Origin: Candidatus Electrothrix aarhusensis
GTDB lineage: Bacteria; Desulfobacterota; Desulfobulbia; Desulfobulbales; Desulfobulbaceae
Length of the DNA stretch: 44,226 bases
Assembly (NCBI GenBank): GCA_004028505.1
Contig: MTKO01000082.1
Location: 1 to 44,226, forward strand
Direction: 5' to 3'
Made by a program: the position numbers and the translations under genes. Position 1 is the first letter of the stretch; every line of letters begins with the position of its first letter. Shown piece by piece: positions 19,176 to 33,127 of the stretch. The notes under the pieces were generated by a model, which was given only the letters and a program-made list of their open reading frames with translations, searched no databases and was not told where the DNA came from.

Positions 19176-20168
19176 TCAATTATCTCCTTGATACAGAGGG
19201 AAAATGGATTGTGTTTTCTGTTTATCAAAGTCAAGTGCTTTTTCCGGCGGCTTTGTTTTCGCCGTTTTTTCCGATTCGGCTGGCCATTCCCCGGCATTGA
19301 GCATCAGAGGAAGACCGTCTTTGCCGCCCCCGATCACCACAACTTTGGCATTGGGTGACATAGCCAATTTCAGGGTCGCCTGAACACCGTGCCAACGCAG
19401 CACCTTTTCACTCATGGTTGCAGCTATATTTTCGGCATAATCCCTGATTCCGCCTGACTCAATCCGCTTCCGCTCCGCTTCCTGTGTTTCAGCCTGCAAA
19501 CGGAAGCTATACGAAAGAGAACGCTGTTCTTCAACAAGCTTATCTTCAATCGCTTTTTTTACTCCAGGCGGCAGCCGCACTTCTCGAATAATGATATCAT
19601 CAACGATCACGAATTTACGTCCGATCTCCTCAATCGCCCGTCGAACAAGGCCTGTTAAGAGTAAATTTTTATTGGTATAGATCTCTTCTGGCGAATGCGT
19701 GCCCAGTCCTTTTCGCAGAACCGATTCAATCTGGGGCAAAATAATTTTATTGGGATAATCCGGGCCGACCCGCTGATGAAGCACTCCCAGCAGTTCAAAG
19801 ATGGGCCGATAACGCACAGCAATTTTGAGGTTGACCGGCAGTCCGCGATTAGTCAGGACATCAAACTCATGCCGGATAATCTGAATCCTGGCATTATAAT
19901 GGGTCATCCGGTTATACGGCATCAGTAGATGTATCCCCTCGGTGAACACCTGATCGGTCACGGTTCCTCCATGAAATGGGCGATAGAGAACCCCCCCCTC
20001 TCCGGTTTCAATCCATATGACAATACGATCCTTGAGGATAATCATTGATAAAGTGAAAGCGATACCTAACAGGATCCAATAGAACCATTTGTCCCGGCAA
20101 GAATAACGAATGTGTTGCCACCGACCCGATGTGCCAGTCTTTTTTCGTGTTGTTTTTTTGAAATCCAT
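19176..20168 (-). CDS. SPFH/Band 7 (prohibitin-like) membrane protein
   Basis: A 330-residue protein with a short basic N-terminus, one membrane anchor (WFYWILLGIAFTLSMIIL, about 29-46) and a prohibitin/SPFH domain. Typical segments are GGVLYRPFHGGTV, EGIHLLMPYNRM, FDVLTNRGLPVNLKIAVRYRP and EEIYTNKNLLLTGLVRRAIEEIGRKFVIVDDIIIREVRLP. A helical region follows (EDKLVEEQRSLSYSFRLQAETQEAERKRIE). Such proteins oligomerise into membrane rings or microdomains and often regulate proteases or organise transporters. The gene starts 9 bp after ABC half 2 and is the penultimate gene of the exporter operon, so a scaffold or quality-control role for the exporter is possible (inference). Confidence 0.88.
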   Translation of the reverse strand: MDFKKTTRKKTGTSGRWQHIRYSCRDKWFYWILLGIAFTLSMIILKDRIVIWIETGEGGVLYRPFHGGTVTDQVFTEGIHLLMPYNRMTHYNARIQIIRHEFDVLTNRGLPVNLKIAVRYRPIFELLGVLHQRVGPDYPNKIILPQIESVLRKGLGTHSPEEIYTNKNLLLTGLVRRAIEEIGRKFVIVDDIIIREVRLPPGVKKAIEDKLVEEQRSLSYSFRLQAETQEAERKRIESGGIRDYAENIAATMSEKVLRWHGVQATLKLAMSPNAKVVVIGGGKDGLPLMLNAGEWPAESEKTAKTKPPEKALDFDKQKTQSIFPLYQGDN

Positions 20169-20177
20169 AAAAGTCTG

Positions 20178-21398
20178 TTATGGGTGAGCTATAAGCAGTA
20201 GAGCCTTGGCCCGACGCAGGACACAGGACAAAGCAATTTGTAAAGTTTCCGGGTCAAGAGCGGCAAAACTTTCATCCAGAATGATCAAATCTGCTTTCTG
20301 GAGCAGAGTACGGGCGATAAATAGGCGACTTCGTTCTCCATGTGACAAACGCCATCCGCCCTCCCCCACCATCTGTTGCAATCCAGAAGGCATGGCCTCT
20401 AAAAGCTCTGCCAATCCTAGTTCTCGACAGACAGTCTCTGCTTCCATCAAGTCCTCCTGAGACGGAGGCCAGCCTCGGCCCATGAGTAAATTAAAGGCAA
20501 GGGTCTCTGTCAGAACATAATTCTGGTGAAATTGAGGTGCAATAACCACCCGCTTGCGCCATGCCTCTTCCCCTAGGCTTGCCAAAGAAAAACCAAACAG
20601 GTGCAGAGAACCGGAATCTGGCTGCTGCAGGCCGCTCAACAGAAGCGCCAAGGTGGACTTGCCGCAGCCCGATGCCCCTTCCAGCAATACAGACTGCCCC
20701 GCTTGTATGGCAAGGTCGCATTCATCAAGGATACCTTGATTTTCCTGGCCTGAATTCGGGTATGAAAAATTCAGCTTCTCTGCCTGTATGACCGGATGCT
20801 TTTCCTTCTGCTGTTTAAAACAGGTCGCCGGGATAAACTGCGGCACTTTTCGTGCATGCTCACGGCAGGCAGCCTGATACAGCGGATAAACCTGCTCCCA
20901 GCTCATCACTGTTTTCAGGAGCTGGTAAATACTTTGCACCAGCTGGTCCAGGGCCAAGGCTGCCAACAGGGTTCCTCCCAGGCTGACCGCGAACATGCTC
21001 ACACCAACCCCGGTGCTGAAAAACATGGTCAGCGTTCCAAGCAGACTCACCGGCAGCCAGCCTCGTCGCCCGGCAGCACTCTTCATGATGACTTCCATGC
21101 TGTCCAGCCGCTTTGACAACATGGCGTAGCGGCTAAGTAATTGGTCTTCTATCTCATGAAGTTGATCAGGCCTTTCCTGGGTCAGCCGGGTACGGTGCCC
21201 CACCATGCGTTCAACAAGATCACAGGTCATAACCCGAGAATGAATCAACCAGTCCCGCATCCTCAGGTAATACATCCAGCCGAGCAGGAGGATCATAGCG
21301 GTCCACCCCAACAGTAACATTCCGTGCAGCAGCCCTCCAGCGCCCAGCATCAACACAACGGCAGCGATAAGCACTTCGAAAAACGATGTGCAGGCCAT
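20178..21398 (-). CDS. ABC exporter half 2, permease end and ATPase domain (after frameshift)
   Basis: The second part of a type I ABC exporter half. It contains the last membrane helices (FFEVLIAAVVLMLGAGGLLHGMLLLG, LLGTLTMFFSTGVGV) and a full nucleotide-binding domain: Walker A GASGCGKST, signature LSHGERSRL, Walker B LIILDESFAALD and the H-loop LLLIAHP, where the protein ends abruptly. It joins the 21350-22375 part after a one-base loss near 21398-21402. Restoring one C makes the junction read S-T-A-S-M-A-C-T-S-F-F-E-V, and the whole protein is 732 residues. It is probably a heterodimer partner of the C39-containing half encoded immediately upstream (inference from operon structure). Confidence 0.9.
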   Translation of the reverse strand: MACTSFFEVLIAAVVLMLGAGGLLHGMLLLGWTAMILLLGWMYYLRMRDWLIHSRVMTCDLVERMVGHRTRLTQERPDQLHEIEDQLLSRYAMLSKRLDSMEVIMKSAAGRRGWLPVSLLGTLTMFFSTGVGVSMFAVSLGGTLLAALALDQLVQSIYQLLKTVMSWEQVYPLYQAACREHARKVPQFIPATCFKQQKEKHPVIQAEKLNFSYPNSGQENQGILDECDLAIQAGQSVLLEGASGCGKSTLALLLSGLQQPDSGSLHLFGFSLASLGEEAWRKRVVIAPQFHQNYVLTETLAFNLLMGRGWPPSQEDLMEAETVCRELGLAELLEAMPSGLQQMVGEGGWRLSHGERSRLFIARTLLQKADLIILDESFAALDPETLQIALSCVLRRAKALLLIAHP

Positions 21399-22375
21399 GA
21401 AGCTGTGCTCATCCCCATGGCTTCCAGCTGTTCAATCTCTTGCACATTACCGATAAAATAGCCGCTCCCTTGATGCTGTATCTCTTCAGGACGCAATTGC
21501 AGGATGCCGTGTAACAGGCGGTTGCGTAAAAGTACCCCAAAATGGAGTGACAAACGATTCTTCAGCTGCATACTGATCAAATGCATTGGGATAACAGTAA
21601 AAAGTAACAAACCCCAAAGCTGAAAATCACCCAAGCCAACGCTTCCCTGTAAGATCGTTTTACCAATCAAAAAAGAGGCGGTCAGGATCAGCAAACGCGC
21701 AGCCAAGGTAGCGCAGACCAACCCGACCAGTTTATGTGGAAATCGAGCCCGACGCAGCTGATGGAAAAATGACGCGCTTGGCGGCAGACGCAGCATCCAG
21801 CATCCTTTAACCCTTGCGCCAGCAAGATATTCCCGAAGCACGGCCCGTCGTACTTTATCTCGCTGCTGTTCTCGAATATTCACCTGTTCTAGGAGAGTAT
21901 CAACCATCGGTCTCAGTGGGGCTTCCAGCTCACGCACCAAAATATCCCGCAGCCTGTGTACGGGCAGACGATACAAGCTTCCATCTTGCTTCAACAGGCG
22001 GAGAGTTCGCCGTCGGCTCGACACTAACAGGACAAAAAAATCTGTAAGTTCAGATAGTTCTCCTTCATCAGGAAGCAACAATAGGGCAGGAGTAGCCCGC
22101 AGCAGTAAATTTTCCTGATCGGGATAGGTAGTTTCCACTTCCACCATTTCCAGACCCATTCGCTGGCTTGTATTCTCCAACCAGGAGGTAAGCTCTTCCA
22201 TGCTCTCGACGTCATCAGGCAGCGGTGGTGGCGTAAGTCCTGTCCTGAGCTCGGTTCTGTCTTGGGCAGCGCCAGACAACAGGGAGGACCGTTCGGCCAA
22301 AAGGGGAATCGCCTCATGTAAAGCACTTAACGGCCAGATGACCTCGGTCGGCAACAAAAAGGTTGGGGGTGTCAT
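21350..22375 (-). CDS. ABC exporter half 2, degenerate C39-like domain and first membrane helices (frameshifted)
   Basis: The first 130-150 residues align by eye with the C39 peptidase domain of the neighbouring exporter. ESMEELTSWLEN...RMGLE matches its SIDTLEDLAVRLGLD, and FFVLLVSSRRRTLRLLKQDG matches HFVVIWRRHGPWVQIMDPGT. Here the catalytic His has become Phe, the Asp has become Lys, and the N-terminal Cys block is missing. It is therefore an inactive, C39-like substrate-binding domain at best. Membrane helices follow (LVGLVCATLAARLLILTASFLIG, FQLWGLLLFTVIPMHLI). The frame breaks after EAMGMSTAS. It starts 15 bp after the upstream exporter gene, so the two are translated together. Confidence 0.85.
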   Translation of the reverse strand: MTPPTFLLPTEVIWPLSALHEAIPLLAERSSLLSGAAQDRTELRTGLTPPPLPDDVESMEELTSWLENTSQRMGLEMVEVETTYPDQENLLLRATPALLLLPDEGELSELTDFFVLLVSSRRRTLRLLKQDGSLYRLPVHRLRDILVRELEAPLRPMVDTLLEQVNIREQQRDKVRRAVLREYLAGARVKGCWMLRLPPSASFFHQLRRARFPHKLVGLVCATLAARLLILTASFLIGKTILQGSVGLGDFQLWGLLLFTVIPMHLISMQLKNRLSLHFGVLLRNRLLHGILQLRPEEIQHQGSGYFIGNVQEIEQLEAMGMSTASWPAHRFSKCLSLPLC

Positions 22376-22390
22376 GCACGTATTCCGCTG

Positions 22391-25189
22391 TCAATGAGTA
22401 GAGTCACAGGGATTTTTTTGTGCATCGGTTTGTTTTTCCCCTGGTACAAGCTTTCCTTTTTCCAAGCGTAAACGAACCCAGTCCGCACTGTTCCAGATCA
22501 GCGCCTGGACAGATTTTTCTCGCTTCAACAATTGAGCATAAGCTGATTGAGCATCCGCTGCCAGACGTTGCGGTTGATCATCCTCCACCAATTCCCCGTC
22601 CTTTATCATCCAGACCCTGTCAAACCCCAGGCTGTCGCTCACGTCATGAGAAATAAAAATCAAAGTAGCACCCTGCCAATAGCGACGGGCTTGGACCAAT
22701 AAATCCCGCCGCTGCTCCCTGGTCAATCCCCGAAAAGGCTCATCCAGAATAACAAGACGCGGAGTATCTCGATTCAGCCCCCGTCCTAAACGTACACGCT
22801 GCCCTTCCCCGCCAGAGAGGAAGCCACCGTTTTCTCCCAGCAGAGTATCCTCGCCATCCGGTAAACGGGATAACACATCCAGCAAATCAGCCTGGCTGAG
22901 TAATTCCACTGTTGGCGGAATCACAGTGTCATTCCCGTAATTCAAATTATCCCGCAGAGAACGATTCCAGAGCTGCACCTCTGGATCCACCCAGACCAGC
23001 TCCCTCCGCAACTGTTGCAGCCGTTCTCCCTGAAGCAGTTCCCCGTTTACTCGAACTGTGCCGCCGGATGCTGGACGATACCAGCCAAGCAGGAGTCCGA
23101 CAAGAGTGGATTTTCCTGCACCGGATGGCCCGACCACGGCCACCTGTTCTCCAGGAAAAAGTTGGGCATCCAGGCCGTTCAAAATCGTTTTCCCAGACAG
23201 AACAATGCGAACATTCTCAAAATGCACTGATAATCCAATCTCCTGTCCTTCACAATCCTCGGAGCAGGATGGGGGGGGGATTTCGGAAATTTCGGAATAT
23301 ACTCGGGAAGATGCCTGCTCTTCCTTATGCTCTTCCTTATACCAGTCATAACTTTCATCAGGTGCATTGAGGGGGTCCATCAAACGCAAGAGGCGATTAC
23401 GCAATGATGGATACAGCTGGGTCAATTCCGCCAAAGAACGACCCAGCTGAGGAAGCGTCAACATCCAATACAGCAGAATAAACGTGCCGCTATTATCACT
23501 ACCGGATTGCATATACGAATACAGCAGCAAAATTGCCAGCCCAGTACTAAACAGCAAATTCAGAGCAGTCATCCGCTCATAGGTGACAAAGAAATCCAAG
23601 CCCGCTTTTGCCCAGTCAACAAGCAGTCTCTCATGTTCACTCCGCAATGCCGGGACCGCGCTGTGGCTGCGAATCGGCAATACCCCCTGAAGGGCGTCTA
23701 AATAAAAACGACTGAGCCCACCTATATGGGTACGAAACCGCATGTCCTGCTCCTGCACCAAGGGCTGGGTGACCAGAGATACAGCAATAACAGAGAGACA
23801 GCTGAACAAAATCAACATGCTCCCCTGAGGATACAGAATAATCAGGCCAGCAGTGATACAGATGATTTCAGTCAATATTTTCAAACTCTGCATTCCTACT
23901 ACCGGTATAATTCGAAGATGGCGCAATTCGTACGCACGCTGGATCATATCTGAAGTGAGTCTGCTGTAAAAATAGCGGTCTCCCAGGCTAGGTATTTTTT
24001 CGAGAAAACGTTGGCGCAAACGCAGTTCAAACCGGCGACCCAAACGGAGCGAGACGCTGTGTAAAGGCCATTCCAGAATCAGCAAGGAGAGCAGAAATAA
24101 AATAACCATCGCAAACGCCTCTGTCTGCTGACCGACCAGAGATAACTGCTGACCAATTTCCACCATTCCTCTCAACACAACGACTTCCATAGCCGTACCG
24201 AGTCCGGCCAACAGCACGGCGCTGATAATCAGCAACGGAGTGAACACACCTTCCAGACAAAGGGTTTGAATGATCTGCTGTTCAGGTGCCTTGGAGTCCT
24301 GAGAAAGCGAGGACTGGAATGCCGCTTCCCCAGCAAAACCTGTTTCTTCATCCACTTCTGATGTGTCCGCATCCGATTCCTCTGCCAGCCCTGCAATATG
24401 CAGCACAACCGCACCTTGAAGAATGATCTGTTCACTGTTCTCAGACGAGAGAAAGGCTGACCAGTATCCCTGGGGAATATGCTCAGGCTGCCCAAGCAAC
24501 TGCTGAATCAGATCACCGGCCTCGGTCCCCTTGCCGATCCCGCCAGCCTGAACCAATGAGGCGGTCATTCGGGTTGCCGCATCCAGCACAGCAAGCCCTT
24601 GTCCTTCCTCCTTGGTTAAGACTTCCTGAAGACGAGCCTCGGACCAGGCAGAATCAGAGCAGAGCGAAGCCATGCGGGCTAAAAGCGGATCGCAGAATTC
24701 CGAGCCAACAGCCCACTCCTGCCAATCAACAGCATCCAGGGTATGTTGATGTATGTAAAGACGTTCCTTTAGGGTGTCTCTACGTACCCAGTGTCGGCCT
24801 GTCCCCGGATCCATGATCTGGACCCAAGGTCCATGTCTTCGCCAAATAACAACAAAATGCGTAAGACCGTTGGGCTGAAGCATGACGGCCAGAGCAGGAA
24901 GGGCCTCTGTCTCGGGCAAAAAAAGATGATCAGCAGGCAAAATAATTTGCAGAGCATCTAAGCCGAGACGAACAGCGAGGTCTTCCAGAGTATCAATAGA
25001 AGTGCCGTCCACATCGGTTTGACAGGCTTCACGCAGCCTTCCATAACTGACATGAATACCGAAACCACCCAATATGGCTTTCAGGGCAGCCGGGCCACAG
25101 TCCATCATCGAGCTTTGGATAACCTGCGGTATCAGGAAACGCCGTTCATCCTGACCATAGCCACCAAGAAGGGAAGATAACCGAAACAT
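22391..25189 (-). CDS. C39-peptidase-containing ABC exporter (half 1)
   Basis: A 932-residue peptidase-transporter. The N-terminal C39 domain has an intact triad: Gln25 and Cys31 (QSSMMDCGPAAL), His111 (THFVVIW) and Asp127 (QIMDPGTG). C39 proteases cut leader peptides after Gly-Gly, Gly-Ala or Gly-Ser during export. An unusually long acidic insert (about 145-320) separates it from the membrane domain (about 325-590). The ATPase domain has Walker A VVGPSGAGKST, signature LSGGEGQRVRLG, Walker B LVILDEPFRGL and H-loop FISHD. The architecture resembles the NHLM-type bacteriocin ABC1/ABC2/HlyD sets (family knowledge). A 9-base poly-C tract lies in the linker before the ATPase (23271-23279 as G). 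The gene starts 17 bp after the adaptor gene. Confidence 0.92.
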   Translation of the reverse strand: MFRLSSLLGGYGQDERRFLIPQVIQSSMMDCGPAALKAILGGFGIHVSYGRLREACQTDVDGTSIDTLEDLAVRLGLDALQIILPADHLFLPETEALPALAVMLQPNGLTHFVVIWRRHGPWVQIMDPGTGRHWVRRDTLKERLYIHQHTLDAVDWQEWAVGSEFCDPLLARMASLCSDSAWSEARLQEVLTKEEGQGLAVLDAATRMTASLVQAGGIGKGTEAGDLIQQLLGQPEHIPQGYWSAFLSSENSEQIILQGAVVLHIAGLAEESDADTSEVDEETGFAGEAAFQSSLSQDSKAPEQQIIQTLCLEGVFTPLLIISAVLLAGLGTAMEVVVLRGMVEIGQQLSLVGQQTEAFAMVILFLLSLLILEWPLHSVSLRLGRRFELRLRQRFLEKIPSLGDRYFYSRLTSDMIQRAYELRHLRIIPVVGMQSLKILTEIICITAGLIILYPQGSMLILFSCLSVIAVSLVTQPLVQEQDMRFRTHIGGLSRFYLDALQGVLPIRSHSAVPALRSEHERLLVDWAKAGLDFFVTYERMTALNLLFSTGLAILLLYSYMQSGSDNSGTFILLYWMLTLPQLGRSLAELTQLYPSLRNRLLRLMDPLNAPDESYDWYKEEHKEEQASSRVYSEISEIPPPSCSEDCEGQEIGLSVHFENVRIVLSGKTILNGLDAQLFPGEQVAVVGPSGAGKSTLVGLLLGWYRPASGGTVRVNGELLQGERLQQLRRELVWVDPEVQLWNRSLRDNLNYGNDTVIPPTVELLSQADLLDVLSRLPDGEDTLLGENGGFLSGGEGQRVRLGRGLNRDTPRLVILDEPFRGLTREQRRDLLVQARRYWQGATLIFISHDVSDSLGFDRVWMIKDGELVEDDQPQRLAADAQSAYAQLLKREKSVQALIWNSADWVRLRLEKGKLVPGEKQTDAQKNPCDSTH
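23271..23279. repeat. Poly-G(9)/poly-C tract inside the exporter gene
   Basis: Nine G on the plus strand, so nine C in the coding strand (I-P-P-P-S), within the linker between the membrane and ATPase domains. The reading frame is intact at this length. A change of one base would remove the ATPase domain. Confidence 0.7.
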
Positions 25190-25206: not shown

Positions 25207-25722
25207 TCAGGGAGAAACAGGGCGGGCCGTATGAAAAAGAAAAGCCGCCGGGGTCTGGTGAGACACAGCGATTTCCATACGTTCCATAGTTGCGCCTGCC
25301 AAAAATTCTGCGGTTTCAAATCGAAGTTCCAGCTGCACACCAACTGTCCTGTTTGCCGGATCAATCTTATCCACCTGAGCAGTCAAAGCACGGCGAGGAA
25401 GAGTGTCTGAGCTGGTTAACATCAGCCGTGTCTTCTGACCGAGCTTAATCTGATAAAAATCCGAAAGGTCAAAATATGCTCGAACATCATAGCGATGATA
25501 AGCAGTCGCTCGATTTTCACCTTTGGCAATTTTCCATACTGGCTGATCTCCCTGGGTGATTTCTATATGTTTACTGCTGACATAAGAGTAGGTTGAAGCG
25601 GCAAAGAACCAGTACACCCAAAGCAACAGCACAATAATGGCCAACCCCAGCGTCAGTCGACTGTAACGCCCGTGATCGGCCTGCAAGGCACGCATTGTTT
25701 GAGAGAAAGGTATTTTCGCCAT
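25207..25722 (-). CDS. Minimal HlyD-like membrane fusion protein
   Basis: A 171-residue protein with a cytoplasmic N-terminus, one membrane helix (LTLGLAIIVLLLWVYWFFAAS, about 24-44) and a short beta-rich periplasmic part. The region FYQIKLGQKTRLMLTSSDTLPRRALTAQVDKIDPANRTVGVQLEL matches the beta-barrel or macroglobulin-like end of HlyD/EmrA adaptors. The lipoyl domain and the long alpha-helical hairpin that normally contact TolC are absent. It lies 17 bp upstream of the C39 exporter and 27 bp downstream of the lipoprotein gene, so it is almost certainly its adaptor. Whether it can dock to an outer-membrane channel is doubtful given its size. Confidence 0.7.
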   Translation of the reverse strand: MAKIPFSQTMRALQADHGRYSRLTLGLAIIVLLLWVYWFFAASTYSYVSSKHIEITQGDQPVWKIAKGENRATAYHRYDVRAYFDLSDFYQIKLGQKTRLMLTSSDTLPRRALTAQVDKIDPANRTVGVQLELRFETAEFLAGATMERMEIAVSHQTPAAFLFHTARPVSP

Positions 25723-25749: not shown

Positions 25750-27963
25750 TCAAGGATGCTCTTTCGCCTTCAAACGCACACTCAGCTCAACTCGACGATT
25801 TTTCCTGCGTCCTTCCTCTGTTGTGTCGTCCGCAACCGGCTGACTTTCTCCAACGCCTTGCGCATCAATAACCGATTTCGGAATACCCTCCTGCTGTAAA
25901 AATTGGGCAACGGAATCGGCACGCTCTTGCGATAAACGAAGATTAAAGGCTGTTGTCCCCTGTCCGTCTGTGTGTGCAATGATTGTAATCCGCTCTATGG
26001 TATCTTGGGCAAGCGTTCGGGAGAAAGTTCGCAATTTCTGCTTGCCCTTGGCAGATAATGTCGGGCTAGCACTTGCAAAATTGTTATCTGAAAACAGGGT
26101 GATCAGCGTACAGCCCTGTTCATTCACCCGCATCCCCTGAGCAGTATCTGGACAGGCATCATAAACATTATAGACGCCATCCTGATCACTGTCATTGGGA
26201 CATCCGCGTTCATCCGTGCCCTGCGCGAGGTCTGCTGCCGAGTCCAAACGACAGAGATCCTGGTAATCAGGATACTGATCATTATCACTATCCTGAGGAC
26301 AACCGTTACGTCGCACACCGAAACGGAGTTCCTCCGCAGTATTGTCTGAACATGTATCCCAGTAATCCGGCACCCCGTCTTTGTCTTGATCAACAGGACA
26401 TCCGATCAAATTTACCCCCTCCTTGACTTCATCAGGCGCGTTATTGGGACAGGCATCAGTATAGTCTGCTACGCCGTCTTTATCTGTATCCAGCGGACAC
26501 CCTTGTGCCGTTACTCCTTTGCTCAGCTGCTCAGGGGTGTTTTGAAGACATTTGTCACGGTAATCTAAAACCTGATCAAGATCCCTGTCGACCGGGCATC
26601 CCTCAGCATTCACTCCTTCAGCCAACTCTTCAGATGTATTATTGCGACATTTATCCAGGTAATCCGGTACATCATCACCATCCGTATCTAAGGGACAGCC
26701 AACCTGCTCCCCTTCGAGAAAAACGCCCTGTACCAGCTCATCCTTCCTGTTGTCTGGACAAACATCACGTTTATCAACTATGCCGTCCTTATCCCGATCA
26801 ATATTAACGCATCGGGGTAATTCACTCAATTGCGCATCCAGTGCATCTGGTGCATCCGGTGTGACAATGTGATTCTTTAAATCACGATACTCGAATCCTG
26901 TTGGGGTCATCCATTTGATCATATAAGGTTTGTACATGATATCCCCATTATCTTCAAAGGCTATTGCCTGTGTTAACCCCTGACAGGTCCGTAAATAACG
27001 AAGTTCATCCAATACCTTATCCGGTGATGCGGCTCCTGCCTGCTCAACTGCGGCCAACAGTATGTTCACGGAGTCATATCCCAGAGCGGCCAAACTATCT
27101 GGCGGCTGTTTGTAGGTTTGGATAAATTTTTCTCGAAAAAAACGAGTATGGTCACTCTCCGCCTGAAACAAGGTGGGAACACCAACATGAATTGGCTCCT
27201 TTATTTCCTCCTGTAGCCCCTGCATTGCCTGCCAAAAGCTGTGCTCATCAACACCTTCTCCTGTTATAAAAAACGTGTTCCCCACGCCCCGTTTATAAAA
27301 CTCTCGTATAATACTACGAGCCATATCTCCGCTGACCAAAAGAAACACCGCATCCACGGGCTCTTTTTTATGGTGACGCTTAAATTCAACAGCATAGGAG
27401 GTAAATTCCCTCCCGGACATCCCACTGAAAAAGGAGTACTCCACAACCGTCCCAATGCCTTGCCCTGCCAGTGATTGCTTCAGGGCCGCGCTCAATTCAA
27501 GGGCGTACTCGCTTCGTTCATTAAAAATCGCTACCCGCTTGATCCCCCTGGCCGCAGAGTACAAGGCCAGCTGCCCTCCCAACACAGAATTTTTAGGCAG
27601 CATGCGAAAAACATAATCAAAATCCATGCTGGTTAACAAATCATTGGTCGCTGTCGGAGCGATAAAGAGCATCCTATTCTGTTGGTAAAGACCAGCAACA
27701 GAGAGCGCCATAAAAGAATATCTATGCCCGATAACAGCCGTAACAGGACTGGAATGCCGAATAAAATAACGGGCAACCTCTCGGGAGTATTCTTTAATAT
27801 TTTCACCGGCCATCAAACTGGAGGTGTGCTTCAGGATCTCGGATGTCTTGGATTCATTCTGATTAATAATCAGTTTAATTTTTTTTTGCAGAACACCACC
27901 GGATGCATTGGTCTCTGCAACAGCCAACTCTGCGCCCTCAATCAACAGACCGTCCCCTCGCAC
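25750..27963 (-). CDS. LivK-like binding domain - seven TSP3 repeats - OmpA domain (main part)
   Basis: 737 residues in three modules. About 1-375 is a type 1 periplasmic-binding domain like branched-chain amino acid receptors (GAELAVAETNASGGVLQKKI, AVIGHRYSFMALSVAGLY, AALGYDSVNILLAAVEQA). About 390-610 holds seven cysteine-containing thrombospondin type 3 repeats of about 36 residues (D-x-D-x-D-x-x-x-D-x-x-D-x-C), predicted to bind Ca2+. About 620-737 is an OmpA C-terminal peptidoglycan-binding domain (ITIIAHTDGQGTTAFNLRLSQERADSV, GVGESQPVADD, RRKNRRVEL). The signal peptide is in another frame just upstream (27942-28100); restoring one G in the GGG at about 27963 joins them into 783 residues. 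The GTG at 27963 is therefore not a genuine start. It is the first gene of the exporter operon. Confidence 0.88.
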   Translation of the reverse strand: MRGDGLLIEGAELAVAETNASGGVLQKKIKLIINQNESKTSEILKHTSSLMAGENIKEYSREVARYFIRHSSPVTAVIGHRYSFMALSVAGLYQQNRMLFIAPTATNDLLTSMDFDYVFRMLPKNSVLGGQLALYSAARGIKRVAIFNERSEYALELSAALKQSLAGQGIGTVVEYSFFSGMSGREFTSYAVEFKRHHKKEPVDAVFLLVSGDMARSIIREFYKRGVGNTFFITGEGVDEHSFWQAMQGLQEEIKEPIHVGVPTLFQAESDHTRFFREKFIQTYKQPPDSLAALGYDSVNILLAAVEQAGAASPDKVLDELRYLRTCQGLTQAIAFEDNGDIMYKPYMIKWMTPTGFEYRDLKNHIVTPDAPDALDAQLSELPRCVNIDRDKDGIVDKRDVCPDNRKDELVQGVFLEGEQVGCPLDTDGDDVPDYLDKCRNNTSEELAEGVNAEGCPVDRDLDQVLDYRDKCLQNTPEQLSKGVTAQGCPLDTDKDGVADYTDACPNNAPDEVKEGVNLIGCPVDQDKDGVPDYWDTCSDNTAEELRFGVRRNGCPQDSDNDQYPDYQDLCRLDSAADLAQGTDERGCPNDSDQDGVYNVYDACPDTAQGMRVNEQGCTLITLFSDNNFASASPTLSAKGKQKLRTFSRTLAQDTIERITIIAHTDGQGTTAFNLRLSQERADSVAQFLQQEGIPKSVIDAQGVGESQPVADDTTEEGRRKNRRVELSVRLKAKEHP

Positions 27964-28100
27964 CCAGCTATGCCGATATGAATCGTATTTCCTTCATCTT
28001 TCTCAATAACCTGCTCAACGGTTTGCGGCTCGTTACGGCAACCCGACAGAAGAAGAAAGAATAAACAGCAAAAGGCTGCGGCGACTTTTCTCATTTTCAT
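27942..28100 (-). CDS. Lipoprotein signal peptide of the LivK-TSP3-OmpA protein (frameshifted N-terminus)
   Basis: From the ATG at 28100 the frame reads MKMRKVAAAFCCLFFLLLSGC, a type II signal with a lipobox L-L-S-G-C. It continues NEPQTVEQVIEKDEGNTIHIGIAG, which is the first strand of a periplasmic-binding fold. The frame is then lost, while VRGDGLLIEGAELAV continues in the next frame. This identifies the protein as a lipoprotein. The frame is open upstream to 28247, but that segment covers the terminator hairpin and is not plausible coding sequence. No good ribosome site is seen; a C8 tract (plus-strand G at 28116-28123) lies about 16 bases before the start. Confidence 0.8.
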   Translation of the reverse strand: MKMRKVAAAFCCLFFLLLSGCRNEPQTVEQVIEKDEGNTIHIGIAGCEGTVC

Positions 28101-28115
28101 CAAAATAACAAAAAA

Positions 28116-28123
28116 GGGGGGGG
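28116..28123. repeat. Poly-G(8)/poly-C tract in the 5' leader of the lipoprotein gene
   Basis: Eight G on the plus strand (C on the coding strand), about 16 bases upstream of the lipoprotein ATG and where a ribosome site would be expected. Confidence 0.6.
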
Positions 28124-28189
28124 AGAGAAGAATACATTGGCACGGCTCTGCTTCACAACGAGCAACAGGGCAGCTTGTTACAAAATTAC

Positions 28190-28222
28190 AAAAAAGCCAC
28201 ACTTCAGGGCCTGAAGTGTGGC
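28190..28222 (-). terminator. Strong intrinsic terminator downstream of the small Gly-Gly ORF
   Basis: Read on the minus strand, GCCACACTTCAGG and CCTGAAGTGTGGC form perfect 13-base arms around one base, followed by six T (28195-28190). It lies 32 bp after the stop of the 46-residue ORF and before the lipoprotein gene, so the peptide transcript should end here and the exporter operon likely has its own start or depends on read-through. Confidence 0.8.
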
Positions 28223-28253
28223 GAAAAAAACAAACACATCCAATCATAAAGCC

Positions 28254-28394
28254 TTATGAGGATTTCATTCCGTATAACGACCTCATATCCTCCCAGAAAC
28301 CGCCTGCTTTTATCTGAGATTGAAGCACAATTCCTTTTTTCTTTGTCAGCTTTTTCTCAACATTTTTGCTACGTACGTCTTTTTTCGTCTTCAT
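28254..28394 (-). CDS. 46-residue ORF with a Gly-Gly motif, candidate exported peptide precursor
   Basis: The ATG at 28394 is preceded by GGAGGG with a six-base gap, a strong ribosome site, and the ORF is followed by a strong terminator. The N-terminal 20 residues are very lysine-rich (MKTKKDVRSKNVEKKLTKKK), then VLQSQIKAGGF, then a 14-residue tail after Gly31-Gly32 rich in aromatic and charged residues (FWEDMRSLYGMKSS). C39 exporters cut after such Gly-Gly pairs, and a C39 exporter operon starts about 150 bp downstream. The leader lacks the usual hydrophobic residues at -4, -7 and -12, so the precursor role is a hypothesis. A related motif occurs in the ORF upstream of ppk1 (31382-31561). 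No database family is recognised. Confidence 0.6.
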   Translation of the reverse strand: MKTKKDVRSKNVEKKLTKKKGIVLQSQIKAGGFWEDMRSLYGMKSS

Positions 28395-28447
28395 TGCCCG
28401 CCCTCCGTTGGTAAAATATTATCATCCCAGCTGTATTATAGCAGATA

Positions 28448-29044
28448 CTATCCCGGTTGATCACCTTTGTCCCGCAGAGTTTCATTCTTTTTCTTCTTTT
28501 TTAAAGACGCAACAACCTCTTTCCCCTTTTCATACTGCTCGGCAAAATAATCGCGCACCGCTTCAGGATCAAAGGTCAAAAACGTCCCGCCAGAGGCAAA
28601 ATGTCTGGCAAAAACTTTACCCACTGCATAGGTTGAAGCACCGTTTAAAACCAACAATGTTCCGTAAGATAATATATGTCCGACACCTGGGATAAATTTA
28701 CTCAAACTGGCTGCCACAGGGGCGGCAGAGGCCACGGGTGCCACTCCACCGACCAGACTGCTGCTTGCGGATCGCCCCACGCTCGCCTTAAATTCCACCC
28801 CGTAAATTTGAGAAAGCCGGTGGAGCATCCTCAATTGCAGAGCAGCTAATGCAGCCAAATCAAGGAGGGGAAAAGGAACAAAGCCCATTGCCATACCGGC
28901 ATACGTGTAGTAAAGGATACGCTGTTTTGCTTCGGCATCCTTTCCTGCATTATCTCCTTCATGTATTTCTTCATGTACATATTCTTTATGTAGACTTCCC
29001 GCTATTTCTTCTTCAGTTGTTACACGCTCATCAACCCCTATCAT
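28448..29044 (-). CDS. DUF697/YcjF-like membrane-associated protein
   Basis: A 198-residue protein when started at the ATG at 29044 (MIGVDERVTTEEE). The first 50 residues are acidic and polar. The rest is the DUF697/YcjF-type region with hydrophobic helices (ILYYTYAGMAMGFVPFPLLDLAALAALQLRML, GVAPVASAAPVAASLSKFIPGVGHILSYGTLLVLNGASTYAVG) and the conserved end ARHFASGGTFLTFDPEAVRDYF. A lysine-rich tail follows. Family members are often paired with GTPases or envelope-stress functions, but none is adjacent here. It is upstream of the Gly-Gly ORF on the same strand with a 53-bp gap and no terminator in between, so the two may share a transcript. The longer frame to 29110 is less likely. Confidence 0.75.
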   Translation of the reverse strand: MIGVDERVTTEEEIAGSLHKEYVHEEIHEGDNAGKDAEAKQRILYYTYAGMAMGFVPFPLLDLAALAALQLRMLHRLSQIYGVEFKASVGRSASSSLVGGVAPVASAAPVAASLSKFIPGVGHILSYGTLLVLNGASTYAVGKVFARHFASGGTFLTFDPEAVRDYFAEQYEKGKEVVASLKKKKKNETLRDKGDQPG

Positions 29045-29177
29045 CCGGTCCTCCTTACCGTGCAATAATCTTAAACAAATAATGTACTCTTCAAAGGTAA
29101 AAGGAGTCAACCCCTATTCATTGTAGCCTCTCTTTAGCAACGCGTTACAAGGAGCGCGTACAAGGAGCTTCCTGAAT

Positions 29178-31385
29178 TCACTTCTTCCCTCGCCCCTTTT
29201 TTCGCTTCACAAGCCTTTTCTGCTCCAAGCTGCAAAGGGCCTGGGCATCGGATAAGCGTTTCTCTGCCTTCTCAATCAGGATTTCATGACAGCCTTTTTT
29301 GCGTTCACCGGTGCATTGGATATAGCTGCCGTCCGGCAGCATTTCCCAAGCGCTGCGCTGATCAGCAAGCTGCACATCAAGGACTTCCCGCAAGACCTTA
29401 CGCAGTTCTTCGGGCTCTACCGGCGTGATGACCTCCACCCGATATTCCAGATTGCGCTTCATAATATCAGCAGAACCGATGAAATACTCTTCCTCACCGT
29501 TATTCTGAAAATAATAGATACGGGTATGCTCCAAAAACCTCCCCACTATGGAGACAACCCGGACATTTTCCGACAGACCGGGTATACCGGGCCTGAGCCG
29601 ACAGGAATCCCGAATCAGGAGATCCACCTGCACACCAGCCATAGAGGCCTTGTACAGGGCTGCCGTGATATCCTTATCCTCCAGGGCATTGGTTTTGAAC
29701 TGAATTCTCCCCGGATTCTTAGTGCTATGATTGGCAATCTCCCGCTCTATTTTGTCCAGCAAGGCCTTTTTCAGCACCCTGGGGGAGGGCAGCAATTTAC
29801 GATAATTTCTCTCCGGCGCATAGCCGGTGGTTAGATAATTAAATAACTCGGTAAGATCCTGGGCAATCACCCTATCACTGGTCAGCAGTCCCAGATCAGA
29901 ATAGATCCTAGCCGTGCCTGCATGATAATTCCCTGTGCCGATATGGGCGTAACGGCGCAGACCGTCAAAATCCCTACGTACCACAAAGATGACCTTGGAA
30001 TGGGTCTTCAGGCCGACAACCCCGTAAGTGACATGCACCCCGGCCTCTTCAAGATGCTCGGCCCAGCGAATATTGGCAGACTCATCAAACCGGGCCATAA
30101 GCTCCACCACCACAGCAACCTGCTTGCCGTTCTGGGCTGCATCCAACAGATAGGGAATAATCCGGGAGCCTGCCGAGGTGCGATACAGGGTCATTTTTAT
30201 CGCCAAGACCTTGGGATCTCGGCTGGCCTCTCGGAGAAAGCGTTGCACAGAGCTGTCAAAGGACTCATAGGGATGTTGAAGCAAAAGAGAGCCCTTTTCC
30301 CTAATGATATGAAAAATATTGGGAGAATCTCCGGAAAGACAGAAATGATCAAAAGGCTGATGCAGGGGATAATGAAATTCCGGGATATCAATGGAGGCAA
30401 TCTCAAAAAGATCCCGTTTACCGATAATGCCCTCCACAGTGAACACATCTTTTTCCTCATCAATACCCAGTTCAGCAGCCAGCATCCCCCGATGAAGCGC
30501 TGACATATCGGCATCCACTTCCAGGCGGACAATCTCGGCAAATTTTCGATTGCGCAGAGCCGTCTCAATCACGGCCAGCAGATCATTTGCATTGGCTCCG
30601 TCCTGCTCGGTAATGGCATTCCTCGTGACCCGGAAAAAGGCACAGGATTCAACAACCAGGCCGGGAAAGACCACCGTCAAATTATTGGCGATCAGATCCT
30701 CAAAACGAATATAGAGATGCCCCTCCCCCACTCGAAGAAACCGGGGAATACCTACTCCAGTGGGCACCTTGATTCGATTGAGAAAGGGGTGCGCATCGTG
30801 CTGATATTTGGTCACGACCAGCAAGTTAACAGACAGGTTGGAGATAAAGGGGAAGGGATGCGCCGGATCCATACCTTGGGGGGTCAGGAGAGGGTAGATG
30901 TTTTCCTGGAAATAATTATCCACCTCTTTTTGCTGGTCCTTATCCAGCTCCTGATAACCGACAATGCGTATGCCCTGCTCAGAGAGCTTGCCGAGCAACT
31001 CCTGCTCCAGCTGCTTCTTTTTTACCAGGATACTGCGCACCACCGCATGACATTCATCGATCTGCCCGCCCGGTGTGCGACCGTCCACGGTCAGCTTGCG
31101 CACCCCGGCCCCGACCTGCTGTTTCAGGCCACCGATCCGCTTCATGTAAAATTCATCGAGGTTACCGCCGACAATGGACAGAAACATAATCCGCTCCAGG
31201 AGCGGGGTTCGTTCATCCTCGCCCTCGTGCAGGACCCGACGATTAAATTCCAGCCAGGTCAGCTCCCGGTTCAGGTACCATTCCGGCGAGGTGAGATCAA
31301 ACTCCGGCTTGTCCGTGTTGCTGTTTTCTGCGCCGGGGTTCTTTTCCTTGGGTTCCACTACCGCAACCTCATTTTTTTTAATCAT
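29178..31385 (-). CDS. ppk1: Polyphosphate kinase 1
   Basis: A 735-residue PPK1 that makes polyphosphate from ATP. The N-domain reads YLNRELTWLEFNRRVLHEGED and LERIMFLSIVGGNLDEFYMKRIG. The middle includes PLLTPQGMDPAHPFPFISNLSVNLLV. The catalytic region has MTLYRTSAGSRIIPYLLDAAQNGKQVAVVVEL, the phosphorylated-His motif GLKTHSKVIFVV, YAHIGTGNYH and LFNYLTTGY. The C-domain ends with IGSADIMKRNLEYRVEVITPVE. The length is normal, with a charged extension at both ends. Its ATG overlaps the stop of an upstream small ORF as ATGA, implying coupling. With the PPK2 at 12.7-13.6 kb, both polyP enzymes are near each other on the chromosome. Confidence 0.95.
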   Translation of the reverse strand: MIKKNEVAVVEPKEKNPGAENSNTDKPEFDLTSPEWYLNRELTWLEFNRRVLHEGEDERTPLLERIMFLSIVGGNLDEFYMKRIGGLKQQVGAGVRKLTVDGRTPGGQIDECHAVVRSILVKKKQLEQELLGKLSEQGIRIVGYQELDKDQQKEVDNYFQENIYPLLTPQGMDPAHPFPFISNLSVNLLVVTKYQHDAHPFLNRIKVPTGVGIPRFLRVGEGHLYIRFEDLIANNLTVVFPGLVVESCAFFRVTRNAITEQDGANANDLLAVIETALRNRKFAEIVRLEVDADMSALHRGMLAAELGIDEEKDVFTVEGIIGKRDLFEIASIDIPEFHYPLHQPFDHFCLSGDSPNIFHIIREKGSLLLQHPYESFDSSVQRFLREASRDPKVLAIKMTLYRTSAGSRIIPYLLDAAQNGKQVAVVVELMARFDESANIRWAEHLEEAGVHVTYGVVGLKTHSKVIFVVRRDFDGLRRYAHIGTGNYHAGTARIYSDLGLLTSDRVIAQDLTELFNYLTTGYAPERNYRKLLPSPRVLKKALLDKIEREIANHSTKNPGRIQFKTNALEDKDITAALYKASMAGVQVDLLIRDSCRLRPGIPGLSENVRVVSIVGRFLEHTRIYYFQNNGEEEYFIGSADIMKRNLEYRVEVITPVEPEELRKVLREVLDVQLADQRSAWEMLPDGSYIQCTGERKKGCHEILIEKAEKRLSDAQALCSLEQKRLVKRKKGRGKK

Positions 31386-31561
31386 CGCTCCCTCTTCTCT
31401 TTGTTTAAAGACCGCAGCTTGCGGATGTTGTCAAAAGACCCAGCTTTCACCTCAGCAGGCAGAACCTGCCGTCCCGATTCTTCCGCTGTAGTATTGAGCA
31501 GTTGTGGTGGGAAGTCAACATTTTTCGCTTTGCTGACTTGGTTTTTGGATTGCTTGATCAT
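31382..31561 (-). CDS. Small ORF coupled to ppk1, sharing the K-A-G-[GS]-F motif
   Basis: A 59-residue ORF from the ATG at 31561 (MIKQSKNQVSKAKN). Its stop overlaps the ppk1 start (ATGA), and coding strand AGAGGGAGC serves as the ppk1 ribosome site within it. Residues 33-43, VLPAEVKAGSF, match VLQSQIKAGGF of the 46-residue ORF at 28254-28394, and the following DNIRKL resembles EDMRSL there. Both start with a lysine-rich segment. Gly-Ser is also an accepted C39 cleavage pair. The start has no clear ribosome site, and an earlier in-frame ATG at 31597 or 31642 is possible. The function is unknown; the two ORFs appear to be one small-protein family in this genome. Confidence 0.5.
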   Translation of the reverse strand: MIKQSKNQVSKAKNVDFPPQLLNTTAEESGRQVLPAEVKAGSFDNIRKLRSLNKEKRER

Positions 31562-31870
31562 GGAATTTGAATCTGTGCCCCTGCCTGTACCCCGCATCAC
31601 TGCGCGGCCTAATTTTGGCCTGCAATACCGGGGTGAGTACATTTCACCCTGTCAATTACTGTTTCTTGTTTACTTTTCATTCAAGATGGTTAAGAGTTGG
31701 CTTGACAGAATGATGACTTTATTTTTCATGTTTGCCCTTTTAATATCCTGTTCGATCATGCAATATGAAAACATGCTTTTCCTCTGAAATTGTCGTCAAA
31801 ATAATCAAACTAAACTTTTAACACTGTATTCGCTGGCGTACAGGGTTCTCACGAAAGAGGCATTAAAAAT
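31562..31870. other. Divergent intergenic region, nothing recognised
   Basis: Between the ppk1-linked ORF (minus) and the DUF21-CBS gene (plus). It is AT-rich in its right half. A TTGACA occurs near 31703 on the plus strand, but no -10 box stands at proper spacing. No other structure is seen. Confidence 0.35.
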
Positions 31871-33127
31871 ATGAACGCTGATGGTCTGTTATTAATAATT
31901 TATGTACTGCTAGCATTGGTTTTTTCATTTCTCTGTTCTGTGGCGGAATCGGTACTTTTAAGTATTACGCCTTCATTTATTGAAGGACAGAAAGAAAGGC
32001 GGCCTAAGCAAGCCGCGCTTTTAAAACGACTGAGACAAGATAAGGTGGACCAATCACTTGCAGCCATTTTGACACTCAACACTATTGCGCATACGGTTGG
32101 CGCGATCGGTGCTGGGGCCAAAGCGACAGTCGTCTTTGGAAGCGCATGGTTTGGTCTGTTTTCTGCTGTCATGACGCTTTTGATTCTTTTTTTCTCCGAA
32201 ATCATACCTAAGACTTTAGGAGCCGTCTACTGGACAACACTTGTAGGTCCAATTTCGTCTTTTCTAAAGATCCTGATTGTGCTGCTTTATCCCATTGTGT
32301 GGATTTCGGAGAGACTAACAAAGCTTATTTCACACGGAAAAAATATTCACATTTTCAGTAGAGACGAATTTATCGCCATGGCTCAGGTAGGCGTCCAGAC
32401 GGGGCATATTCGCGATAAGGAATCAAGGCTTATCCGAAACATATTCCGATTCGATTCGCTCAAAGTGGACGATATCATGACACCACGTACTGTTATCTCC
32501 GCATTACCTGAGGATATGAAGATTATCGATTCGTTGAAACACGTTACCCAAATTCCTTTTTCACGTCTGCCGCTCTATACGACGGACCTTGACAACATAA
32601 CTGGTTTTGTTCTTAAAGAGGATATTCTCATCAACGCAGCTCAGAATCAGAAGCAAGGCGATCAAAAACTTAATGCATTGAAACGTGAAATACTTACTGT
32701 TCCAGATTCGGTATCGTTGACAGTATTATTGGAGCAGTTTCTTAAGGATCGTCAGCACATCGCTATAGTCGTCAATAATAAGCATGGCGGGACGGATGGA
32801 CTGGTGACACTAGAGGATTTAATCGAGACGATTATGGGTATGGAAATTATGGATGAAACAGACGATGTTGAAGACATGCGTGCTCTAGCACGGAAACAAT
32901 GGAAGAAACGTGCTAAGGGAATGGGACTTGATGCTGATACCTTTGATCAAAGAAAGGACGAACAAGCCACTTCAGCCGACGCAAAAAGCTGCGCGGTTGA
33001 TGAGACTCCACCCCTGCGTAAATCACGGGGCTCTAATCGGATGTCCCTCCGGGACAGGGCAGCAAATATGATGAATGGATTATGTGGCGTAGCTGGTACG
33101 TTGGAGAGGTTGGGTTATGGGGGGTGA
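31871..33127 (+). CDS. DUF21-CBS (CNNM/CorC-type) membrane protein with an unusual tail
   Basis: A 418-residue protein. Residues 1 to about 165 form the DUF21/CNNM membrane domain with three to four helices (LLIIYVLLALVFSFLCSVAESVLLS, FSAVMTLLILFFSEIIPKTLGAVYW). About 180-330 is a CBS pair (VDDIMTPRTVISALPEDMKI, FSRLPLYTTDLDNITGFVLKEDIL, HIAIVVNNKHGGTDGLVTLEDLIETIMGMEI). Relatives transport or sense Mg2+ or other divalent cations. The last 70 residues (from KKRAKGMGLDADTFD) do not look like the family and end in GTLERLGYGG, overlapping the start of the next gene by 11 bp. This tail may derive from a recombination junction with the restriction-type locus that follows. Confidence 0.85.
   Translation: MNADGLLLIIYVLLALVFSFLCSVAESVLLSITPSFIEGQKERRPKQAALLKRLRQDKVDQSLAAILTLNTIAHTVGAIGAGAKATVVFGSAWFGLFSAVMTLLILFFSEIIPKTLGAVYWTTLVGPISSFLKILIVLLYPIVWISERLTKLISHGKNIHIFSRDEFIAMAQVGVQTGHIRDKESRLIRNIFRFDSLKVDDIMTPRTVISALPEDMKIIDSLKHVTQIPFSRLPLYTTDLDNITGFVLKEDILINAAQNQKQGDQKLNALKREILTVPDSVSLTVLLEQFLKDRQHIAIVVNNKHGGTDGLVTLEDLIETIMGMEIMDETDDVEDMRALARKQWKKRAKGMGLDADTFDQRKDEQATSADAKSCAVDETPPLRKSRGSNRMSLRDRAANMMNGLCGVAGTLERLGYGG

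Follow-up and report, generated by a model that had tools for sequence, protein, structure and literature searches.

The leaders of double-glycine peptides usually carry Val, Leu or Ile at position -4, and mutations at -4 and -7 are harmful, according to sections of PMC6363468. For cyanobacterial leaders, parts of PMC3140520 give the consensus M(R/K)ELX3E(I/L)X2(I/V)XG(G/A), and they describe a three-gene cassette of HlyD, C39 ABC and C39-less ABC proteins. The locus considered here lies in a 44,226-nucleotide stretch (the window) of Candidatus Electrothrix aarhusensis, a member of the cable bacteria. Genome mining targets GG leaders or known modification enzymes, and small precursors are easily overlooked by gene callers. 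We report that a small gene of the window, ORF1, very probably codes for a secreted peptide in precursor form. As far as sequence comparison can tell, it is very probably one member of a widespread precursor group in which a short "VKTxVKAG"-type leader is combined with a dedicated peptide-cutting exporter.

ORF1 and the operon that it heads

ORF1 (28254..28394, reverse strand) encodes a peptide of 46 residues, MKTKKDVRSKNVEKKLTKKKGIVLQSQIKAGGFWEDMRSLYGMKSS, with a very lysine-rich N-terminus, and a GGAGG ribosome site lies 5' of it. A search of 56 other genomes retrieves it with E values of 7e-16 to 4e-24 in four, all of them among the seven congeners (G003, G004, G006 and G007; 72-96% identity), the remaining matches being weak (E 0.3-0.8, four further genomes). 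E. scaldis GW3-3 is among the carriers of an orthologue. For the pairs where it is computable, dN/dS is about 0.1 (0.09 against G003, 0.11 against G006), dN being far below dS, and F33, M37 and Y41 are invariant across six aligned members. Orthologues, substitution pattern and synteny indicate that ORF1 is a real gene on which purifying selection acts. It is followed by a terminator, a hairpin with a T run (28190..28222, reverse strand; -20.9 kcal/mol, z -6.2), with none of 200 shuffles equally stable. The hairpin is seen in five genomes, i.e., the window and the four congeners, with one two-sided pair change and some one-sided ones, two pairs being broken in G004 and G007. Rfam at gathering thresholds gives no match in 27900-32000.

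All further members of the block lie on the same strand. Upstream of ORF1 is a DUF697 protein (28448..29110; PF05128, 5.4e-11), and downstream follow a periplasmic-binding / thrombospondin-3 / OmpA protein (25750..28247, by Pfam), a short HlyD-like adaptor of 171 aa (25207..25722), a C39 peptidase ABC exporter of 932 aa (22391..25189; Peptidase_C39 1.6e-19, ABC_tran 6.6e-23), a second ABC exporter without C39 domain (20178..22375) and a Band 7 / SPFH protein that closes the conserved block (19176..20168; PF01145, 2.3e-23). Two of these genes are split by frameshifts in the window, the binding/OmpA gene into 27942-28247 and 25750-27963 and the second ABC gene into 21350-22375 and 20178-21398, and both are intact in G003 (801 and 732 aa). 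The adaptor has no Pfam match of its own in the window; it is assigned by operon position and by BLAST similarity to proteins at the same position in other loci, one of which (L101) matches HlyD_3. Neither a known modification enzyme nor a recognisable outer-membrane channel is present among the operon proteins scanned.

The order ppk1-DUF697-ORF1-SBP/OmpA-HlyD-C39 ABC-ABC2-Band 7 is common to the four congeners with ORF1, which heads the same operon in each, and the DUF697 and Band 7 proteins also belong to the block at two Mariprofundaceae loci. Within the genus, the exporter is found in six of eight Electrothrix genomes and ORF1 in five of those six. The exception, G001, has no ORF1 match, but assembly of its exporter contig starts inside the binding-protein gene and does not extend to the position of ORF1. 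Tests of co-occurrence within the genus give p 0.048 and 0.036, values that rest on seven and eight genomes. The claims of the earlier note on this part of the window are thereby borne out: both small reading frames exist, ORF1 has its strong ribosome site and strong terminator, a C39 exporter operon follows on the same strand, and the homologue search that it proposed finds ORF1 conserved together with the exporter.

The exporter combines an N-terminal Peptidase_C39 domain (about residues 1-150) with an ABC domain, as in PCAT/AMS transporters (PF03412, 70.5 bits against a cut-off of 22; PF00005, 82.3 against 25), its membrane domain scoring below threshold (PF00664, 17.6 against 28). The catalytic residues C31, H111 and D127 are the same in all 37 C39 domains of the alignment, the Cys partly by construction since the search patterns included it. 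A model of the domain (mean pLDDT 74.6, the first 24 residues below 50) finds its best structural matches in the peptidase domains of PCAT1, ComA and LahT. Judged by these residues, the C39 active site is intact.

The frame upstream of ppk1

The earlier note had placed beside ORF1 a second putative precursor, ORF2 (31382..31561, reverse strand), on the ground of a shared motif V-L-x-x-[QE]-[IV]-K-A-G-[GS]-F and of an ATGA coupling to ppk1. Both frames do read VLxx[QE][IV]KAG[GS]F. However, when the corresponding ppk1 upstream region of five congeners (G003, G004, G005, G006 and G007) is aligned to it, indels of 1, 2 and 8 bases appear, and the frame of ORF2 through to KAGSF is kept in none of them. 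At that site G003 reads KYRF, and G004 and G007 read LEAESF; the letters KAGYF or KAGSF survive in G005 and G006, but in a frame that differs from that of the N-terminal part. The local score between ORF1 and ORF2 is 36, which 30 of 2000 ORF2 shuffles reach, and among the 408 window ORFs of at least 30 aa a frame at 38367-38477, inside a 453-aa ORF, scores 41 against ORF1. By these measures the two resemble each other no more than expected by chance. The ATGA, found in each of the six sequences, consists of the ppk1 start codon and the base that opens the next codon, and the coupling dissolves with this. The same DNA carries a sigma-70-like box, TTGACT-17-AATACT (31490..31518, reverse strand), which is conserved in the alignment, a longer pattern around it being found in six of eight genus genomes, the window's included. 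On this comparison ORF2 is not a gene but promoter or leader DNA of ppk1; therefore the motif was misread as a family mark, and a two-gene family of precursors is hardly credible.

K-A-G small ORFs beside related exporters

Further small ORFs of this kind are found in the genus. A second exporter, 45% identical to the first, occurs in only two of the eight Electrothrix genomes (G000 and G004), and in the same two it is adjoined by a 51-aa ORF with VATNVKAG; no second ABC gene is seen beside it. The small ORFs at its two loci (L058 and L059) share with ORF1 little beyond V-x-T-N-V-K-A-G, and they were listed through a filter requiring KAG or a G-rich pair, so that KAG is there partly selected. 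The peptide of this exporter has a helical moment above that of shuffles (0.4-0.8% reach it). An amphipathic helix considered for the ORF1 core is unsupported, 54% of shuffles reaching its moment.

The genome-wide motif scan that the earlier note had called for yields few plausible precursors. A first scan of the own genome for KAG[GS]-like codons returned 13 places, eight of which were translated, with only ORF1 precursor-like; a second returned 29, against 24 for the reversed pattern, with ORF1, one ORF each on contigs 74 and 129 and C46:24860-25000 as plausible small precursors. The last has no relative in the seven congeners, and a 22-aa frame in contig 7, opposite a 592-aa ORF, was set aside as chance-like. 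The contig-129 place was one of the five left untranslated in the first scan and surfaced through the homologue search with ORF1.

A radical SAM gene precedes this contig-129 paralogue of ORF1 by 41 bp, and a sulfotransferase gene lies upstream of the second exporter (by Pfam in L058, a look-alike by eye in L059). Both could be read as signs that the peptide is modified before export, as a RiPP, by an enzyme of one of these types. The radical SAM gene is, however, present in 8/8 genus genomes and followed by a KAG ORF in one only, and we rejected it as a partner of the paralogue; nor is a known modification enzyme seen in the ORF1 operon. We regard modification of this kind as unlikely.

Across nine aligned small ORFs from the two exporter loci and one orphan locus, K-A-G is kept in all nine (three of them picked with KAG as one criterion), while the lysine-rich part varies. 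This pattern bears on whether ORF1 might instead be a small cytoplasmic or regulatory protein, e.g., a lysine-rich nucleic-acid binder, with a coincidental K-A-G and a promoter region shared with the exporter operon. The lysine-rich N-terminus and the terminator that parts ORF1 from the transporter genes would suit such a role, but the variability of precisely the lysine-rich part, and the enrichment of the strict motif near the exporter family (mostly within 5 kb, see below), make it rather improbable.

Beyond the genus, small ORFs with [VIL].[TS].[VIL][KR][AG]G lie near 33 of 80 related exporter loci, which are not independent of each other; 100 permuted motifs over the same loci gave a mean of 2.67 and a maximum of 7. 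The motif is found in 0/11 loci of other C39 proteins (Fisher p 0.006), this control consisting of 11 regions that contain 12 of the 38 C39 matches obtained from other genomes, picked for longer open frames, three of them only 10-11 kb long. A looser motif reaches 39/80 loci, but also 1/11 controls and up to 22/80 loci when permuted. A strict variant is found at 22/80, which differs from 33/80 because motif and start-codon rules differ; we prefer these two figures to an uncurated 40/80 that includes chance frames. Strict-motif small ORFs number 29 of 10798 within 5 kb of the exporter versus 2 of 5742 farther away (p 0.0004); with the same 5-kb limit, one permuted motif was found at 15 loci. 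On two Mariprofundaceae contigs, which show no second ABC gene, a small ORF with RTNIK[AV]G, listed without motif filter, sits exactly at the position of ORF1. Taken together, sequence comparisons establish that ORF1 travels with its exporter and that the K-A-G stretch recurs beside exporter relatives in several phyla.

At the other 47 of the 80 loci no motif small ORF is present. These include variant forms (L062, L063, L086) and loci on short or edge contigs (for example L061), and at L064-L069 (Beggiatoa relatives, Desulfobacterota) at most chance-like frames are seen. These loci would favour an exporter whose true substrate is something else, the KAG ORFs being immunity or accessory peptides. 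Elsewhere, however, KAG ORFs often come in tandem groups in which varied C-termini follow the same conserved leader, as one would expect of precursors, and this alternative seems very unlikely. We thus retain the precursor reading, which the conservation, synteny and co-distribution of ORF1 with the exporter and the KAG ORFs of other loci uphold for ORF1, while its extension to ORF2 falls.

Proposed export and comparison with known systems

LQSQIKAG (residues 24-31; 28302..28325, reverse strand) fits [VIL]-x-[TS]-x-[VIL]-K-A-G, and the lysine-rich N-terminal ~31 residues of ORF1 would be a leader ending in this stretch. We consider it likely that ORF1 is a precursor cut at K-A-G and exported by the downstream C39 ABC protein. 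The N-terminal C39 domain of the exporter would recognise the leader stretch and cut after K-A-G, leaving GFWEDMRSLYGMKSS (residues 32-46; 28257..28301, reverse strand), or one residue later after K-A-G-G. The exported product would be the C-terminal 14-15 residues, (G)FWEDMRALYGMK, with Ser or Ala after the M-R pair, and the second ABC protein and the HlyD-like adaptor may assist. Since the terminator lies between ORF1 and the transporter genes, the peptide may be made in excess of its exporter. Its role would most likely be that of a signal or of a bacteriocin-like peptide.

A profile of 51 distinct candidates has V/I/L at -4 in 48, K/R at -7 in 41, A at -2 in 35 (G in 11) and G at -1 in 48; +1 is G in only 16, so that a GG pair is no general feature, and -12 is most often absent, K or P. 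The resulting consensus, M-K-V-[KR]-[TS]-x-[VIL]-[KR]-[AG]-G, is by this profile a variant of the double-glycine leader. Of the motif first proposed, the stretch ending in K-A-G is conserved, while '[GS]-F', like the '[ED]-[DN]-[MI]-R-x-L' once thought to be shared, belongs to the variable core; the reported absence of a hydrophobic -4/-7/-12 pattern holds for -7 and -12, mostly not hydrophobic, but not for -4. The minimal leader would often be just M-K-V-K-T-N-V-K-A-G, and the cores behind it would be interchangeable, comprising aromatic helical and Cys-rich ones, tandem 'NHNQ' repeats and even a glutaredoxin-like domain.

We lean towards a large, unmodelled class of exported peptides in about six phyla (as named in the sequence records), defined by a minimal leader and its own HlyD / C39-ABC / ABC lineage. 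Cable bacteria would have two or more systems of this type, which might serve in communication between filaments or in conflict among them. The literal KAG motif strings do not occur in the literature text searched, where only NHNQ is found among the matches listed for motif and repeat strings, and the titles and abstract openings of related literature contain no description of a KAG leader. Terms for the operon parts are absent from the main text of PMC11976967, and excerpts of PMC10231218 contribute nothing further. Papers that mention both 'bacteriocin' and 'cable bacteria' look unrelated by their titles and abstract openings, and neither 'bacteriocin' nor 'C39' appears among the cable-bacteria matches listed. 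The ORF1 system may offer a first hint that cable bacteria secrete peptides. More generally, a K-A-G leader beside a recognisable exporter offers a simple rule by which candidate secreted peptides can be sought in phyla that have been little studied.

With the C39/PCAT (AMS) double-glycine systems (LahT, ComA, PCAT1, microcin V) the present one shares a Cys-His-Asp C39 domain of the same fold, small precursors, and a conserved leader that ends in two small residues with a hydrophobic -4. In contrast to the classical G-G, G-A or G-S at -2/-1, KAG leaders end in [KR]-[AG]-G, with Lys/Arg at -3; that of ORF1 ends in A-G, which would become G-G with a cut one residue further on. Position -6 is Thr/Ser, the hydrophobic residues stand at -8 and -10 in place of -7 and -12, and at many loci the leaders are only ~10 residues long. 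The cassette of HlyD, C39 ABC and C39-less ABC proteins, found in the window's operon and at many other exporter loci, resembles NHLP/NHLM export (TIGR03794, TIGR03796, TIGR03797), whose leader is nitrile-hydratase- or Nif11-like. Here, however, all three components stay below the curated NCBIfam cut-offs (ABC1 164.1 vs 853.3 in the window, ABC2 125.4 vs 709.4 in G003, HlyD 53.7 vs 156.2 in L101), and the leaders have ~10-40 residues. For nine peptides tested (ORF1 and eight other KAG peptides), hits up to E 1 include no NHLP or Nif11 leader family and no convincing Pfam or NCBIfam family, only weak unrelated ones. Compared with the cyanobacterial consensus, the KAG leader is likewise short, with an M-[RK] start and a hydrophobic -4, but it is without Glu at -8 and carries K/R at -3 and -7 and T/S at -6.

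ORF1 and the neighbouring C39 exporter in Electrothrix

ORF1, the 46-residue frame described in the earlier note, is indeed open on the minus strand (28254-28394) and lies in a block whose order on that strand is ppk1 (29178-31385), a DUF697 protein (28448-29110), ORF1, a periplasmic-binding/thrombospondin-3/OmpA protein (25750-28247), a short HlyD-like protein, a C39 ABC exporter (22391-25189), a second ABC protein (20178-22375) and, last, a Band 7 protein. The binding-protein/OmpA and second ABC genes are split by frameshifts in the window and both unbroken in the congener G003, where the exporter is 95% identical; these frameshifts may stem from sequencing error or from early decay.

Conservation, on which the earlier proposal hinged, was found as orthologues with 72-96% identity in G003, G004, G006 and G007, placed between the DUF697 and binding-protein genes in all four. 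Pairwise dN/dS is 0.09 against G003 and 0.11 against G006, while for G004 and G007 synonymous sites are saturated and dN is only 0.16-0.18. The terminator hairpin, previously described as strong, is so and occurs in five of five genomes (the window's own and the four congeners), with one two-sided change, some one-sided changes, and two pairs broken in G004 and G007. Judged from sequence, ORF1 is a gene.

A search of 57 genomes recovered the exporter in six of eight genomes of Candidatus Electrothrix, the cable-bacterium genus to which the window belongs, and in none of the 49 others at E 1e-60, and the anticipated co-occurrence holds, ORF1 being present in five of the six exporter-bearing genomes. 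No ORF1 match was found in the sixth, G001, whose contig with the exporter starts inside the gene for the binding protein and so does not cover the ORF1 position. Neither exporter nor ORF1 was found in G002, nor in G005 (69% complete).

In this search a second exporter, with 45% identity, is confined to G000 (the window's own genome) and G004. Upstream of its HlyD-like gene, both carry a 51-residue ORF (two of eight Electrothrix genomes) with V-A-T-N-V-K-A-G and little else in common with ORF1; an additional 63-residue ORF at the G004 locus has V-R-T-N-V-K-A-G. These three ORFs came through a filter naming KAG, so that their motif is partly selected and their position is not. In the 49 further genomes the 51-residue ORF had no match except a weak partial one in G049 (E 0.005). 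At one locus of the second exporter (L058:284-4247), Pfam identified genes for a P-type ATPase-like protein, a sulfotransferase and a DnaJ-TPR protein immediately upstream; at the other (L059:12148-18279) it identified the P-type ATPase-like gene, and sulfotransferase and DnaJ-TPR look-alikes were judged by eye. They could possibly form a modification or assembly set.

The window's genome also holds an ORF1 paralogue on contig 129, reading ...VKTQLKAGSFGDGMKTVYA..., with KAGSF (L018:1474-1626, minus strand, equivalent to L039:1516-1668), 41 bp downstream of a radical SAM gene. The latter occurs in eight of eight Electrothrix genomes and has a KAG ORF behind it in only one; the paralogue is perhaps a recent insertion. 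On contig C46 (24860-25000; L146, L170), a 47-residue lysine-rich ORF with an AGGAG site contains V-R-V-K-S-S-V-K-A-G; it has no relatives in the seven congeners, and no exporter lies within the 3 kb examined.

The region upstream of ppk1

The earlier note had derived a shared motif, V-L-x-x-[QE]-[IV]-K-A-G-[GS]-F, from ORF1 and ORF2, a 59-residue frame upstream of ppk1. ORF2 is open at 31382-31561 (minus strand) as claimed, and as a gene it is rejected: of the five congeners whose DNA ahead of ppk1 could be compared, none retains ORF2's frame through to KAGSF. These five share a sigma-70-type promoter-like block, TTGACT-17-AATACT (31490-31518, minus strand, in the window), and then diverge by indels of 1, 2 and 8 bases; G005 and G006 still spell KAGYF or KAGSF, but out of frame with the N-terminal part. 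One copy of the block is present in the window's own genome, G003, G004, G006 and G007, and two in G005. Since the ORF2 frame is broken and a different frame, among 408 window ORFs with 30 or more residues, is more ORF1-like, the shared motif is a coincidence. One half of it nevertheless points to something real.

KAG-type small ORFs beyond the genus

Small ORFs with a KAG-type leader, a stretch like [VIL]-x-[TS]-x-[VIL]-K-A-G, are common and often tandem beside exporter relatives, as seen at the best 80 of 190 relatives confirmed in a genome collection with an alignment of eight exporters as query. Labelled taxa include Mariprofundaceae, Beggiatoa relatives, Nitrosomonas, methanotrophs, Acidobacteria, Chloroflexi, myxobacteria and Nitrospira; one locus, L061, is apparently the contig from G001. 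The strict motif [VIL].[TS].[VIL]KAG occurs at 22 of 80 loci, against a mean of 0.39 and a maximum of 2 for 200 permuted motifs, and 20 of 31 such ORFs lie upstream in the exporter's direction. Within 5 kb the count is 20 of 80 against a permuted mean of 0.38; a single permutation, perhaps overlapping with the true motif, reached 15. With ATG starts, the main motif, [VIL].[TS].[VIL][KR][AG]G, is found at 33 of 80 loci (100 permutations: mean 2.67, maximum 7) and at none of 11 control loci, which surround other C39 proteins from the same phylum. A looser form, [KRQAVT][TS].[VILM][KR][AG]G, raises the count to 39 of 80, with a mean of 6.85 and a maximum of 22 for permuted versions, and also occurs at one of the 11 controls. 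No small ORF with the main motif was found at 47 of 80 loci. Some of these have variant forms (L062, L063, L086) or are short contigs, but L064-L069, whose exporters are closely related to that of the window, gave at most chance-like frames.

The strongest single evidence comes from two Mariprofundaceae contigs where the genes for Band 7, DUF697, the binding protein, the HlyD-like protein and the C39 ABC protein form a single block, with no second ABC gene seen beside them. Between DUF697 and the binding protein lies a 53- or 58-residue ORF with Q-R-T-N-I-K-[VA]-G. Position and motif agree here while the rest of the peptide differs, and no motif filter was applied in listing these ORFs.

Other arrangements were also observed. 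On a Parabeggiatoa contig (L073:8581-8808, minus strand) a KAG-type leader, TKTGLRAG, precedes a domain resembling glutaredoxin (PF00462, E 1.4e-5); here an entire small protein may be the cargo of a similar export system. At acidobacterial loci (L091:3385-3765, L099:3353-3736, L100:8434-8694, L131:7197-8681) KAG leaders are repeated in tandem, every copy with a conserved N-H-N-[QE] core behind it, either inside a single ORF or spread over a series of tiny ORFs; L100 and L101 also have a gene for a TPR protein near by.

Leader, protease and known systems

A leader profile was built from 51 distinct candidates, gathered with the motif itself and including a few chance frames; seven of the input rows are cable-bacteria peptides and the others have ribosome-site-like sequence. 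It shows M/L/I at -10, V at -8, K/R at -7, T/S at -6, V/I/L at -4, K/R at -3, A (35/51) or G (11/51) at -2 and G (48/51) at -1, with few preferences beyond, G being commonest at +1 (16/51). ORF1 fits as L-Q-S-Q-I-K-A-G, and members with K-G-G or R-G-G connect this leader with the classical double-glycine site.

In the most likely mechanism, ORF1 would be cut by the C39 domain of the exporter behind K-A-G (or K-A-G-G), and about 15 residues would leave through the ABC proteins and the short adaptor, as a peptide that may signal or inhibit. Helix amphipathicity is strong for the core of the second system and not for that of ORF1. Cys, His and Asp are conserved in every one of the 37 C39 domains aligned.

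A KAG-type leader was not found described in the literature searched, in the parts available, subscription papers being mostly absent from it. The predicted C39 domain model (mean pLDDT 74.6; N-terminal 24 residues below 50) matches the peptidase domains of PCAT1, ComA and LahT. By NCBIfam cut-offs the exporter falls outside NHLP/NHLM. Compared with what PMC6363468 gives for LahT, the KAG leader disagrees at -7 and -12 but agrees at -4.
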